From positions 2,418,001-2,482,000 of the forward strand of contig NC_087074.1 in the NCBI RefSeq assembly GCF_026151205.1: 64,000 bases of DNA, in the 5' to 3' direction. This stretch comes from Bolinopsis microptera. Lineage: Eukaryota > Ctenophora > Tentaculata > Lobata > Bolinopsidae. Under the pieces are notes generated by a model. It saw nothing but the letters and a program-made list of their open reading frames with translations. It did not search any database and was not told the origin of the DNA. The position numbers and the translations under genes were made by a program. How positions within the stretch are numbered: the first letter of the stretch is position 1; every line of letters starts with the position of its first letter. This document shows, piece by piece, positions 41,001 through 46,833 of the stretch.

Positions 41001-42286
41001 ATTTAGCATTCCCACAAGCTCCACCGCCACTTATTTCGCTTGGGCCTAGGCTCCGATATCTATCTGAGATCAGAAACTGAGATACTGTTAACTGCAGTGT
41101 AACTGCCAACTGGAAGTCGGAAAAGTGGAAGTTCATTTTTTATATAACCTCGAGAAGAAGTGCTATTGAAGTACACACTGTTTACCATAAACACAGCCTA
41201 CCAACTATTATACAATACATTAAATCAACTAGGGACGGGAGTTTCAGTAATATGATTCAAATCGCTCTTTATCGCTTAATGTACTTCTACGAAGTACATT
41301 CTAAGACCTAAGTGCTAAGCAACCCCGAAGGCCAACAGCGAAAGTAAGTTGAAATTAACAGAAATTCCGTACAACTTTCAACTATGTACCACTAGGAAGC
41401 AAAACCGGCCTAACCTCAATATTGCTATAGTAAAATCTTACCATCTTATTTTTTAAGTCAGCGAAATTGAAGCCGATTGCATTGAAAATTGACATTAATT
41501 TAGATCGGAAAATGTTTGGATATAGTCTCAGAATAGAAGTGTCTCAGAACATCAACGTCAAAGAGATGAACTGACAAGTCAACAGTTTTCTACATACTTG
41601 CTCTACAATATATTTTTGCATCCATTGACATATAATATTTAAGTCTCTACTGATAACTGATAAATATCGACAATTTATACTGTGCTGCGTCTACGATATC
41701 AAAAGTGTGGTTTTAAACGTGCGCGGCACGCACACTCCCGCGCTACTATATTGTGTGAACGTCGATGATAAAATTCAACTTTTATTAAACAAAGAACTTT
41801 TGCGCCATACATTTGAGACAACTTCTGATACATGTTTTTTGGCTTTATATGTCCGTGAACTGAGTGGGATTTGCTATGGTATGATAGAGGGGCATGTGTA
41901 CTAAAATTTTCATTAAAATTCAAATTTTTTTGGCGCTTCGCGCCAAAGCCTGAACTTCAAAAAATTTTCGGGTAGCGTACAAAAATGTTGAACAATTAGT
42001 TAATTCATTTTTATTTCTAATTTTTAGTACTTTGTATAAGTTGACAAATGAAATATACTTGTTCGGGGTTGTTGACAAACAACTGTTAATAATTATAAAT
42101 GGTAATCAAAATTCCAAAATGAACTAATTATATATTTACACATTTGTTTGGTTGTATTTTTAAGTGCTCCCTTATCAGTTATTTGTTGCTAAATCGCGAT
42201 AAGCGAACGCGTGCTATTGTACATTTATTGTACATTGCTTGTATAAAACTCAAATAGTGTGTGTAACTGACATTTAAAGGTTCAAT
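41001..42286. other. Intergenic DNA and probable 5' untranslated part of the LINE
   Basis: No exon was recognised. The 5' boundary of the LINE could not be placed because no target duplication was evident. A GC-rich patch at about 41718-41750 and a TGGCGC-TTCG-CGCCA hairpin at about 41931-41944 could belong to either unit. Confidence 0.35.
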
Positions 42287-43738
42287 ATGCAAGACAAGGA
42301 AAACCTGAAATCAGTAAGCGATGATGCTAAGAAACGTGTACTTGGAAGCCTACTTAACAAAGCTGATGCCCCCAGCAAGAAGGTTCTCAGTGTGTATAGT
42401 TTCAGTGCAAGTTATAAGACCAATCTGAAAGATATGAAATCACTCACCGCAGTTCAACTAGAACCCTGTGCAATATTTCTAGGTTTTAATGTCAGAGATG
42501 GTGTGAAGAAACTGTACACGAATAAACAGACTCTATGTGATAGAATGATTCTCAAGATCGAGTCCTTGTTCGACATAGAATGCGAGGACTGTAACGATGT
42601 GTACTGTAATGAACTGGGAAAAGAACCGCTCTTAAGATGCCGGCTATGCTTACAGGGCTCCCACGATTGTGAAGCCATGGCCGAAAAAGCCAAGACCTTC
42701 AACGACCTCATTCAGAAAGGACTGCTTCCTTTAGGAGGATCTTGGCTCTGCTACGAATGTTCAAAAAAGAACGAAACACGCTCACTTCAACCTACCCAGA
42801 AACCTACCAAGAAAAGGAACACAGATAGTATAACAGATCTATCCACTATTAAAGAGGTTGAATCTGAGGTAGAGGGCGAGGGAAACGACGATGAAGATGA
42901 AGATGAGGATGAGGATGAAGACAGGGAAAGCCCTAGAAGAGGTAGACATAATGATACCGAAAATAACCCCCAGATTTGCCGGGAATACACTATGAGGAAC
43001 TGTCCCCACGGCCTCACTGGCAAACGTCTCATTGGTGGTAAGAAATGCTCATACCAGCACCCCATCAGGTGCCGCTTTTACTCCAATTTCGGAGACGACA
43101 AACGCAGAGGATGCAGGAATGGGAAGAAATGCACTTTTTTCCACCCTAAACTGTGCCGTAATTCAGTTGCGAATCACGTATGTTTAAACAGCGATTGTGG
43201 CTTCCATCATCTTAAAGGAACGGCCAGAAAGACTGTTGGAAACGTGAATCTCACTGACAGAAATCGCCTGCCTCAGCAGCAGCAGCCCAAAGATACGAGA
43301 AGAATAGAATTCAACACGAACAGAAGTTCCTGGCCGCCTCCTGGTGGTTATGATGTGGACAGAATGGGTAGTCTAAACTCCCTCAACACCCCCTACCCAC
43401 CCACTGTTGAATATCAGAAACCCCTCAGACAACGTAAAGACAGTACATCTGAGAGGGATAGTGCTTTTTTAGAGAAGCTCATGGAAAACATGAAAAACGG
43501 AATTATAACCCAGATGAACTCCAAAATGGAGGAACTTCGAGGGCAAATTCCAGCCCTTGTCCAAGAGACACAACGGAGCCAGCTGGACCCGAGATCACGC
43601 CAAACATCCTCTCAGCAAATCTCGACACAGTTCCCACCACCAGCACAGTTCTCAGCCCAAGTGCCACTCCCAAACCAGCCAATGCGGATGCCGATGCCAC
43701 TAAACTTCATTCCCAACTATCAAGGATCTTGCTACTGA
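42287..43738 (+). CDS. LINE ORF1 protein: PHD-like and triple CCCH zinc fingers, 483 aa
   Basis: ORF1 proteins of LINEs coat the element RNA. Residues of about 99-158 form a PHD-like cysteine cluster (CEDCNDVYC...LLRCRLCLQGSHDC...SWLCYECSKK). Residues 195-213 are an Asp/Glu run. Residues 231-308 contain three CCCH-type fingers (CREYTMRNC...CSYQH, CRFYSNFGDD...CTFFH, CRNSVANHVC...CGFHH), a likely RNA-binding module. The C-terminal third is Pro- and Gln-rich with a predicted coiled-coil-like stretch (LEKLMENMKNG...KMEELRGQ). Codons 393-395 contain a T TTT TTA slippery site that would redirect part of translation into ORF2. The frame ends at TGA 43736-43738. Confidence 0.85.
   Translation: MQDKENLKSVSDDAKKRVLGSLLNKADAPSKKVLSVYSFSASYKTNLKDMKSLTAVQLEPCAIFLGFNVRDGVKKLYTNKQTLCDRMILKIESLFDIECEDCNDVYCNELGKEPLLRCRLCLQGSHDCEAMAEKAKTFNDLIQKGLLPLGGSWLCYECSKKNETRSLQPTQKPTKKRNTDSITDLSTIKEVESEVEGEGNDDEDEDEDEDEDRESPRRGRHNDTENNPQICREYTMRNCPHGLTGKRLIGGKKCSYQHPIRCRFYSNFGDDKRRGCRNGKKCTFFHPKLCRNSVANHVCLNSDCGFHHLKGTARKTVGNVNLTDRNRLPQQQQPKDTRRIEFNTNRSSWPPPGGYDVDRMGSLNSLNTPYPPTVEYQKPLRQRKDSTSERDSAFLEKLMENMKNGIITQMNSKMEELRGQIPALVQETQRSQLDPRSRQTSSQQISTQFPPPAQFSAQVPLPNQPMRMPMPLNFIPNYQGSCY
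43465..43471 (+). promoter_or_regulatory. Putative -1 ribosomal frameshift site T TTT TTA
   Basis: The heptamer sits in the ORF1 frame as GC[T TTT TTA]. The ORF2 frame has its last upstream stop at 43459-43461 and is then open from 43462 to the end of ORF2. A -1 slip here enters ORF2 immediately. No downstream pseudoknot was established by eye. Confidence 0.55.
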
Positions 43739-46700
43739 ATGCTCGGTCCATCTCCCCAGCCGCAACCAGCACTGTAAAATGGAAGATCCCATTCATCCAA
43801 GACCACATACTTGACGACCTAGGAAGACCCCCGGTCCCTATTCTCGCTATCACTGAATCATGGTTGAAGCCATATATCAGTGATGCTCAAATAGCTATAG
43901 ATGGGTACAACAGTCTTAGAGCAGACCGTCATAGTCGAAAAGGTGGTGGTTGTGTGCTTTACGTTGAAAACTCGCTGCTAGTATCAGATACTGTAAATTT
44001 TAGTGACAAACACTGCAGTATGCTGCATTGTCTCATAGACTCTATGAACGCCCTTGTCTCCGTGATATACCGCCCACCAGATGCTCCTCCCGGATCCTTC
44101 AAAGCAGTCCTGGACCAGGTGCAGGAGAAACTAAATAACTTGACATCGAACGATAGATCACCTGACATCTACATTATGGGGGATTTCAACCTCCCAAATA
44201 TAGATTGGGACTCTTGCCAAGCTTTACCTGGTCAACCGCTTTGTGACCAGCAAGCTTGTTCCGAACTAATTGATTTCATGGAGAGAAATTTCTTGACACA
44301 AATGATCTGTAAGCCCACGAGAAATAACAACACCATCGATCTCGTCCTCACAAATAAACCACAGGACACAGTTGAGACAAATATCTCCGAATGCCAACTA
44401 TCTGACCACAGGCTAGTCGAGCTCGTTCTCGGACATAACCCGCTCTGCCCAAAAGAACATACTCCTATATCTTTCGACAGAAACTCTTTTCGGGCGACTG
44501 ATTTTCATAGAGCAGATTTTGAAGCAATGAACGATCGTTTAGAAGCTGTTAACTGGATCTCTTTGAGAGAACTCTGTTATGAAGATGAAGATGGAAGTGC
44601 CTTTCTGGAGCTGATACGCCTAACTGTCCTCCAGATAACCCTCCTAAACTCGCCTTCTAAAGACCCTACTGGATCTGGCCCTCCCCGCCCCCGTAGAAGT
44701 CGCCAAGTCCGTGAAAAATACACAATGAAGAGGAAAAGAAGAAAACTCAATGCCCAAATAAGTGCACTTACTCAAAACAACCCAACTTCGAGAAAAATCG
44801 AAAAGCTGAAAACCGATGTGAATCTTCTGACCTTCGAAATAAGTGAACTTGTGATCAAGCAACTTAACGAAAAAGAAGTTAAAGCTGTAAGTACAATAAA
44901 GACGAACCCAAGATTCTTTTATTCTTACGCTAAACGATTTGCAAAGGTAAAATCATCCGTCGCCCCAATTAGAGATAAAAACGGAACTCTGAAAATGGAC
45001 CCAGCGGAAAAAGCAGAAATTCTCCAGACTCAATATGTCACAGTCTTCAGCAACCCAAATTCTGCAAATGTTGAAGAATGCCTCGCCGGATTAGATCCTC
45101 ATCCAAAAGAAGATCTCAACACATTCACCTTCACAGCAGACGACATATCAGATGCCATAAAGGAACTGGACCCGTATGCCTCCACCCCTGATGGTGACAT
45201 CCCGGCCAAGATCCTAACTAAATGTCGAAGGACAATCGCTGAACCAATTTATCTACTCTGGAAACGCTCATTTGATAACGGAGTCATACCATCTGGCATG
45301 AAGACACAGTACATCACGCCTGTGTTCAAGAAAGGAGACCGAACATCTGCCGCTAACTATCGCCCTGTCTCGATAACCTCTCACATTATTAAGATATTTG
45401 AGAGAGTGGTCAGAAATCATCTTGTGGAACATATGGAGTCAAACAGCTTTCTCTCCCCCCATCAGCATGGATTCCGCAAGAAAAGAAGCTGCTTAACTCA
45501 ACTAATAGACCACGTAGATAACATCCTGAAAACTCTCAACGACGGCAACGAGGTTGATGTTATATACCTTGATTATGCCAAAGCGTTCGATAAGGTAGAT
45601 CATCAAATATTACTTGCAAAGGCAAAACGCTATGGAATAAAAGGAAAGACTCTGCAATGGCTGACTGAATTCCTGAAGGATCGCCTGCAAACTGTGGTCG
45701 TGGAAGGAAAAAAATCATCCTTTCAGCTAGTAATCAGTGGGGTACCCCAAGGAACAGTATTGGGACCCATTCTTTTCATTCTATACATTGACGACCAACT
45801 TGATACATTGGTTACCGCTCTGGGAAAGGTGTTTGCTGACGACACCAAGCTCATTGGAAAAATCATGGACTTAGCTACCAAAAGCCTACTTCAAGACGAC
45901 CTCCTAAATGTAATCGCTTGGGCCCTGAAGAACAACATGCAACTAAATGAGGCCAAATTCGAAATATTGAATTACAGCTTGAACAATTCATTACTGTTAA
46001 GAGAATTGCCCTTCACCAGTCAATATTCCTGTTACAATTTAACAAATGGAAGAACTATTGACCCAGCCAAAACTGTGAGGGACCTAGGGGTTCTCCTGTC
46101 AAATGACTGCTCCTGGTCTTCTCACATACAGCAGATGGCTAAAACAGCAAGGACGATGACGTCATGGGTCCTTAGCGTATTCAGAGATAGGTCACGCTTC
46201 CTCATGCTCACACTCTACAAAACCATGGTGAGAAGCAAACTCGAATACTGCTGCCCGGTGTGGAACCCTGACAAGATCAGCGATATAGAAGCTATTGAAA
46301 GCATCCAACGACACTACACTCGTCGAATCAGTGGCTGCCAGAACCTTGATTACTGGGAACGCCTGCAGAACCTGAATCTTCTCTCATTACAGAGACGCAG
46401 AGAACGATACATCATAATCCATACATGGAAGATGATGAATGGATTAGCTCCGAACGACATCAACATGCAGTTCAAGGAAAGCTCCCGACACGGTGTAAAG
46501 GCCACTGTGCCTGCATTTAACAAAAAGGCACAATGCTCAATCTCGACCCATTATGAAAACTCTTTTGGAGTAAAAGCAGCCAAACTATGGAACCTGCTCC
46601 CCAAGGAAGTTAACACAATCCAAGTCTTGGAAACTTTCAAATCCTCCCTTGCTAAATTCCTGAAAGGCTTCCCGGACACCCCGCCCACAAAAGGATATAC

Positions 46701-46761
46701 CGCCATCACAAATAATTCTCTTCTGGAATGGACTCTACAAAAAGATCTAAGCCAGGAGTGA
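43729..46761 (+). CDS. LINE ORF2: APE endonuclease and reverse transcriptase, about 1,010 aa
   Basis: It nicks target DNA and copies the element RNA into it. The endonuclease comes first (LNARSI, ITESWL, IMGDFNLPNIDW, TRNNNTIDLVLTN, LSDHRLVEL). The reverse transcriptase follows (PVFKKGDRTSAANYRPVSIT, LDYAKAFDKVDH, SGVPQGTVLGPILFILYIDD, VFADDTKLIG), with catalytic FADD at about residues 702-705. A C-terminal region ends in YWERLQNLNLLSLQRRRERY and further basic sequence. No ATG lies near the start; the first conserved residues are encoded from a TTG. The same frame is open upstream to 43462, overlapping ORF1. Expression therefore probably depends on frameshifting or reinitiation. Confidence 0.88.
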   Translation: MLLNARSISPAATSTVKWKIPFIQDHILDDLGRPPVPILAITESWLKPYISDAQIAIDGYNSLRADRHSRKGGGCVLYVENSLLVSDTVNFSDKHCSMLHCLIDSMNALVSVIYRPPDAPPGSFKAVLDQVQEKLNNLTSNDRSPDIYIMGDFNLPNIDWDSCQALPGQPLCDQQACSELIDFMERNFLTQMICKPTRNNNTIDLVLTNKPQDTVETNISECQLSDHRLVELVLGHNPLCPKEHTPISFDRNSFRATDFHRADFEAMNDRLEAVNWISLRELCYEDEDGSAFLELIRLTVLQITLLNSPSKDPTGSGPPRPRRSRQVREKYTMKRKRRKLNAQISALTQNNPTSRKIEKLKTDVNLLTFEISELVIKQLNEKEVKAVSTIKTNPRFFYSYAKRFAKVKSSVAPIRDKNGTLKMDPAEKAEILQTQYVTVFSNPNSANVEECLAGLDPHPKEDLNTFTFTADDISDAIKELDPYASTPDGDIPAKILTKCRRTIAEPIYLLWKRSFDNGVIPSGMKTQYITPVFKKGDRTSAANYRPVSITSHIIKIFERVVRNHLVEHMESNSFLSPHQHGFRKKRSCLTQLIDHVDNILKTLNDGNEVDVIYLDYAKAFDKVDHQILLAKAKRYGIKGKTLQWLTEFLKDRLQTVVVEGKKSSFQLVISGVPQGTVLGPILFILYIDDQLDTLVTALGKVFADDTKLIGKIMDLATKSLLQDDLLNVIAWALKNNMQLNEAKFEILNYSLNNSLLLRELPFTSQYSCYNLTNGRTIDPAKTVRDLGVLLSNDCSWSSHIQQMAKTARTMTSWVLSVFRDRSRFLMLTLYKTMVRSKLEYCCPVWNPDKISDIEAIESIQRHYTRRISGCQNLDYWERLQNLNLLSLQRRRERYIIIHTWKMMNGLAPNDINMQFKESSRHGVKATVPAFNKKAQCSISTHYENSFGVKAAKLWNLLPKEVNTIQVLETFKSSLAKFLKGFPDTPPTKGYTAITNNSLLEWTLQKDLSQE

Positions 46762-46833
46762 TTGGAGGACGTACTTGATACTGTTGTCCAGAAGCGATCC
46801 CTGCCGAACCTACCTAAAGTAACCTAAAGTAAG

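Follow-up and report, generated by a model that had tools for sequence, protein, structure and literature searches.

Conservation of a slippery heptamer between ORF1 and ORF2 suggests programmed −1 frameshifting in CR1-like LINEs of the ctenophore Bolinopsis microptera

Introduction

A full-length CR1-like long interspersed nuclear element (LINE) lies in a stretch of 64,000 nucleotides (nt) from the ctenophore Bolinopsis microptera (contig NC_087074.1, positions 2,418,001 to 2,482,000; hereafter the window). It carries two open reading frames (ORFs), the second of which encodes the endonuclease and reverse transcriptase (RT) and is in the −1 frame relative to the first. A slippery heptamer, T_TTT_TTA, stands at the upstream edge of their overlap, and its two codons are kept letter for letter across subfamilies in which silent sites are otherwise saturated. 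Based on these comparisons, programmed −1 frameshifting is very probably the best explanation for how the endonuclease-RT is expressed, namely as an extension of the ORF1 protein. Translation of ORF2 in two-ORF LINEs is mostly unsolved or ascribed to reinitiation.

The ORF1/ORF2 junction

The features that define the junction, all on the forward strand, are the following.

42135..46832 (+), full-length CR1-like LINE of about 4.7 kb, ends approximate, from comparison with other copies
42287..43738 (+), ORF1, 483 amino acids, stop TGA at 43736–43738, from the ORF listing
43459..43461 (+), TAG, final stop of the ORF2 frame, 3 nt 5' of the heptamer, from the sequence
43465..43471 (+), slippery heptamer T_TTT_TTA, ORF1 codons Phe394-Leu395, putative −1 shift site, from the sequence and subfamily comparison
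43472..43728 (+), predicted fusion linker, read in the −1 frame across the end of ORF1, open in 14/14 subfamily representatives
43729..46761 (+), endonuclease-RT part of ORF2, the endonuclease beginning LLLNARSI, from Pfam and Protein Data Bank (PDB) matches
43736..43738 (+), ORF1 stop codon, within the first endonuclease codons, from the sequence

In ORF1 phase, the T at 43465 is followed by the codons TTT (43466–43468) and TTA (43469–43471). The heptamer conforms to X_XXY_YYZ, the pattern of canonical −1 frameshift signals. A −1 slip at the heptamer leads into the ORF2 frame, which then reads FFR... and is free of stops from 43462 to 46761. According to the proposed mechanism, most ribosomes would read TTT TTA GAG and complete the 483-residue ORF1 protein with its C-terminal helix, and a minority would slip one base back at U_UUU_UUA and then translate a linker of about 85 residues that shows little conservation. 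The slipped product would consist of ORF1 residues 1–395, the endonuclease and the RT, and would lack the C-terminal helix and tail of ORF1. The slippage itself, its rate and the fusion as the working form of the enzyme are what we infer from the sequence.

A first-pass annotation, made from the letters of the window, had proposed just such a fusion by programmed frameshifting. The elements on which it built are all found in the sequence: the ORF2-frame stop followed by an open frame under the end of ORF1, the heptamer in the ORF1 phase from which a −1 slip reaches ORF2, and an ORF2 that has no ATG nearby. It had also pointed to other copies as the place where the idea could fail, through loss of the heptamer or stops in the overlap, and the comparison described below supports the proposal instead.

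Copies and subfamilies

A DNA search with the junction returned 27 matches including the window copy, nine of the others being long and 96–100% identical, and the rest consisting of one long match at 90%, short pieces and diverged relatives at about 67–71%. A search with the endonuclease N-terminus gave 1119 candidates, 150 of which were scored, and all copy counts are therefore lower bounds. Junctions were kept if the alignment started at query residue 9 or earlier; this excluded 33 of the 150 and left 117, window included, in each of which 600 nt around the endonuclease start were inspected.

TTTTTTA is in phase and inside the open ORF2 frame in 76 of the 117 junctions. The 41 without an in-phase site comprise 21 members of a distant clade (NIQG-type, discussed below) and 20 copies that were aligned to the 14 subfamily representatives. 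Twelve of these 20 alignments stop short of the site (5' truncated, rearranged or too decayed), six keep TTTTTTA together with a frame lesion (L011 has seven T), and two have an altered site. Altogether, 84 copies from the 14-subfamily clade extend as far as the site, and 82 of them have the heptamer.

The 14 subfamilies were sorted by eye according to endonuclease motif and search identity, and one representative was taken from each, the window included. Over the first 100 endonuclease residues the representatives are 39–82% identical (median 51%), and fourfold codon identity among families in the endonuclease is 26% (341/1288), which means that silent sites are saturated. As for other species, an endonuclease scan of viral contigs gave no match.

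The open overlap and the start of ORF2

All 14 representatives lack stops in the −1 frame between the heptamer and the endonuclease, the whole overlap included. The +1 frame of the same overlaps contains 71 stops, and 6–18 ORF2-frame stops occur in the 300 nt that precede the heptamer. When ORF1 is reshuffled synonymously in the overlap, the −1 frame stays open with a probability of 0.008–0.16 per subfamily, the product being about 10^-20.6 with families taken as independent. The final ORF2-frame stop lies 0–63 nt upstream of the heptamer and directly adjoins it in L028 and L045, which excludes a shift further upstream in those two. The ORF1 and ORF2 frames differ in all 14 subfamilies, and a 2A-type in-frame polyprotein layout is not found. 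The length of the linker varies; in L033 the heptamer lies 66 nt before the endonuclease versus 267 nt in L032, a 201-nt in-frame shortening.

In nine of the 14 subfamilies, the stretch from the point where the ORF2 frame opens to the endonuclease start lacks an in-frame AUG. The first ORF2-frame ATG of the window is at 44020, 97 codons past the first endonuclease residue and beyond the Asn of LLLNARSI, which we take to be catalytic. Furthermore, the ORF1 stop starts 4 or 7 nt beyond the start of the first endonuclease codon in 14/14 subfamilies, and reinitiation after ORF1 could therefore not easily yield the whole domain.

These observations bear directly on the alternative that ORF2 has a start of its own close to the ORF1 stop, through internal entry or termination-reinitiation, the heptamer being incidental, which we consider unlikely. 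Starts of this kind have been proposed for SART1 (UAAUG) and LINE-1. Dependence of ORF2 translation on ORF1 has been reported for SART1 and L1 (PMC2881922), and in the L047 subfamily an in-frame AUG precedes the ORF1 stop by 7 nt. However, L047 is the only one of the 14 with an in-frame AUG near that stop, SART1-type coupling, in which the AUG overlaps or adjoins the ORF1 stop, is not seen in the window, and most subfamilies offer no start codon at all ahead of the endonuclease. Reinitiation would also leave unexplained both the frame that is open back to the heptamer in 14/14 subfamilies and the silent conservation of TTT TTA. The in-frame AUG of the L047 subfamily stands exactly at the first endonuclease residue (L047, L048 and L100), and this subfamily could in principle also reinitiate.

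Conservation of the heptamer and its codons

Frameshifting at the heptamer is further suggested by the codons themselves. TTTTTTA stands in ORF1 phase in 14/14 representatives. In the codon alignment, 19 ORF1 columns are invariant in amino acid over the 14 rows and are also degenerate, and among these only the shift codons are invariant in codon as well (TTT 14/14 and TTA 14/14). The remaining 17 all vary, and an invariant Leu five alignment columns further on is written with five codons. In five of the 17 (columns 185, 212, 218, 355 and 356) the row of L015 or L044 is probably non-homologous; the other 12 also vary. Silent conservation was scored for 85 columns; the Leu codon of the heptamer heads the ranking (z 14.3), the Phe codon is third (7.25) and the Glu that follows the shift site is fifth.

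The other Phe-Leu pairs of the same ORF1 pieces are never written TTT TTA (0/20), and codon usage in these pieces predicts this spelling in about 6% of pairs; the usage count includes the unrelated N-terminal stretch of L044, which leaves the shift site untouched. The 13 further TTT TTA matches would have a probability of about 1e-16 if families were independent, a figure that is a guide only because they share a tree.

The sequence around the heptamer also admits readings at the level of RNA or DNA synthesis. TTTTTTAG could be a 3' splice acceptor, used in cis or in trans, whose use yields either an ORF2 mRNA of its own or a fusion spliced in frame, since its pyrimidine run followed by AG resembles one, and a G directly follows the heptamer in 13/14 representatives. 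Yet the six copies of the L026 subfamily with an in-phase site (L025, L026, L027, L062, L063 and L065) have TTTTTTATTG, the single copies L077 and L106 read TTTTTTAAAG, and even an ORF2 RNA produced by splicing would, in most subfamilies, be left without a start AUG, so that splicing appears very unlikely. Polymerase slippage on the T run, during transcription or reverse transcription, could likewise join the frames by altering the number of U; a run of six T is present, and L011 and L116 have seven. Slippage of this kind has no need of the final A, yet six T and A are kept together in 14/14 representatives, which makes it highly improbable. That the motif merely reflects the conserved Phe-Leu at the start of the ORF1 helix is hardly tenable, for although Phe394 is invariant in 16/16 ORF1 rows and Leu395 nearly so, a constraint on amino acids leaves silent positions free, codons vary in the other 17 columns that are invariant and degenerate, and the distant L058-type family writes the same Phe-Leu as TTT CTC.

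Contrary observations and downstream RNA structure

Several points, some from the sequence comparison and others from RNA folding, weigh against programmed frameshifting. The comparison covers one genome. The site is changed in two copies, to TTTTTCA in L051, which is 99.8% like L050 over 600 nt, and to ATTTTTA in L097, which is 92% like L032. Five of the 14 subfamilies do have an in-frame AUG, at the unrelated places −60, −45, −34, −7 and 0 codons relative to the endonuclease, that of L032 lying 7 codons upstream. In addition, an N-terminal Cys column ranks second in silent conservation and uses one codon (11/14 rows, 55/55 pairs, z 7.3), from which it follows that codon invariance by itself is not unique to the shift site.

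As for folding, the consensus fold of the 14 families is empty and several families do not fold at all after the heptamer. Windows of 80 nt have a mean z of −0.84 versus −0.32 in the background (1.6 standard errors). Within ORF2, background windows of 50 nt themselves have mean z values of −0.5 to −0.7. For 50-nt windows from 7 nt after the heptamer, the mean z is −1.19 versus −0.07 in the background (326 windows), about 3.8 standard errors, and L036, L041 and L044 fold strongly at this place (z below −3). Stimulators, if there are any, would be family-specific. The window itself offers one candidate.

43479..43493 (+), candidate hairpin TCATG/CATGA, 5 base pairs, 7 nt 3' of the heptamer, weak, from folding prediction

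This hairpin has no counterpart in the other families. A downstream pseudoknot, which the first-pass annotation had suggested looking for, did not emerge from the local and consensus folds, among which no pseudoknot program was included. A pseudoknot or hairpin as a common signal was set aside after per-family folds, folds compared with background and consensus folds (four groups and all 14) gave no shared structure. In L036, L039 and L047 a long consensus stem with some covarying pairs begins about 8 nt after the heptamer and is suggestive.

A distant clade and turnover of the site

None of the 21 NIQG-type copies has TTTTTTA at the shift position. At the homologous place, GGATTTT is present in phase in 11 of the 21 (L054–L058, L102, L103, L109, L111, L113 and L121), out of phase in two and absent from eight. 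In ten of the 11 the last ORF2-frame stop precedes it by 6–9 nt, and the open frame of L121 extends further upstream. No stop interrupts the −1 frame across the ORF1 overlap in L054, L055, L057 and L058, which belong to two families; the support is weaker here (P 0.04–0.07).

Within the 14-subfamily clade, L034 and L039 (2/14 subfamilies) read GGATTTTTTA, in which G_GAU_UUU and U_UUU_UUA stand in a single phase. These arrangements suggest that the shift site may turn over without loss of function. Whether the entire LINE lineage makes its endonuclease-RT solely as a Gag-Pol-like ORF1 fusion by means of retrovirus-type −1 slippery sites, the site having turned over between G_GAU_UUU and U_UUU_UUA through sequences like GGAUUUUUUA that combine the two in one phase, is in our judgement an evenly balanced question. 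If this were true, the enzyme would lose the ORF1 helix, and the shift would set the ratio and the assembly state of both proteins.

A second possible shift site, G_GGA_AAG, occurs in phase near the ORF1 stop in L057–L060, L109–L113, L118, L121 and L123. It lies 42–45 nt before the endonuclease start in L058-type copies and is absent from L054–L056, L102 and L103.

Relation to known systems

Frameshifting in LINEs has already been suggested. A −1 frameshift is reported as required for ORF2 of Dictyostelium TRE5-A and TRE3-A (PMC5911963), frameshifting has been described for the gag of Drosophila HeT-A (PMC5009743), and a +1 shift, reinitiation or readthrough has been suggested for Paramecium LINEs (PMC5405496). 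None of the open-access listings and paper passages searched describes, for a LINE lineage with an APE-type (apurinic/apyrimidinic) endonuclease, a slippery heptamer conserved where ORF1 meets ORF2. As far as searched, the mechanism proposed here is a known one that is apparently undocumented in this form.

The closest parallel is human immunodeficiency virus (HIV), of which U_UUU_UUA is the natural shift site (PMC5009743). The heptamer and its phase are identical to those of HIV-1 gag-pol, and a fusion of Gag-Pol type is predicted here; in contrast, the host of the motif is a non-LTR (lacking long terminal repeats) retrotransposon with an APE-type endonuclease, in which no shared downstream structure was found. 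Pea enation mosaic virus shifts at G_GAU_UUU (PMC5009743), and the umbra-/dianthovirus form of this site corresponds to the GGATTTT of the distant clade (in phase in 11/21 copies), although in this genome it is carried by two families only. TRE5-A and TRE3-A are likewise two-ORF non-LTR elements with a reported −1 requirement, but no shift site is named for them in the passage of PMC5911963 that reports it. The CR1/L2 LINEs in which ORF1 is of PHD type (Metcalfe and Casane 2014, PMC4120745) share the APE endonuclease, the RT and a Cys/His-rich ORF1. SART1 and LINE-1 also have a downstream second ORF with endonuclease and RT, but they are described as using unconventional ORF1-dependent initiation and no fusion (PMC2881922).

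A definite shift site that has stayed unaltered amid an otherwise diverged junction makes the question of ORF2 translation testable by a short reporter. It also suggests a fixed, retrovirus-like ratio of ORF1 to ORF1-ORF2, and would carry the Gag-Pol logic of LTR elements into non-LTR ones. In addition, the slippery site may serve as a marker for spotting the same strategy in other LINE lineages.

The ORF1 protein

An AlphaFold2 (AF2) model of the window ORF1 has a mean predicted local distance difference test (pLDDT) score of 68.7, with residues 1–165 well predicted and disordered linkers. Three parts are distinguished.

Residues 1–165, N-terminal part, possibly PHD-like, from the AF2 model
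Residues 229–311, 42971..43219 (+), CCCH-type Cys/His region, from the AF2 model and Pfam matches of relatives
Residues 391–432, long C-terminal helix, followed by a Pro/Gln-rich tail, from the AF2 model

In the model, the shift codons (residues 394–395) fall in the first turn of the helix. Neither the helix nor the Pro/Gln-rich tail would therefore be present in the fusion, which would instead have an unconserved linker ahead of the endonuclease. When 16 aligned ORF1s were scanned with Pfam (E up to 1), zf-CCCH_2 was found in six (best E 4.8e-5) and, weakly, PHD in two (best E 0.02), and neither in the window's own ORF1. A fold search with the ORF1 model gave 0 matches at E <= 0.001, and no protease domain was found in the window ORFs by Pfam scan. 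A term search in the main text of PMC4120745, a survey of ORF1, gave no match for CCCH, frameshift or overlap.

The AF2 model of linker and endonuclease was poor (mean pLDDT 47.6) and was not used. One of the 16 scanned ORF1 rows has a GIY-YIG match (E 0.0017); it is probably L044, a chimeric copy whose open frame runs upstream into unrelated sequence at the N-terminal part.

The enzyme part and the ends of the element

The endonuclease is matched by the Pfam families Exo_endo_phos_2 (1.9e-14) and Exo_endo_phos (9.2e-11), and RVT_1 covers about 45331–45972 (9e-28). The best PDB match of ORF2 is the LINE-1 ORF2 protein (E 2.4e-14), the RT part being covered. The element has features of CR1-clade LINEs, namely two ORFs, an APE endonuclease and RT in ORF2, and short 3' tandem repeats. 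The assignment to CR1 is putative, being made on general likeness and the first-pass annotation, and short 3' tandem repeats in place of poly(A) are what we take to be a CR1 mark.

46813..46832 (+), 3' terminal tandem repeat, 2 x CCTAAAGTAA, from comparison with other copies

The 5' start near TTTACA and the 3' end at the two copies of CCTAAAGTAA are each common to four other copies, and the flanks differ.
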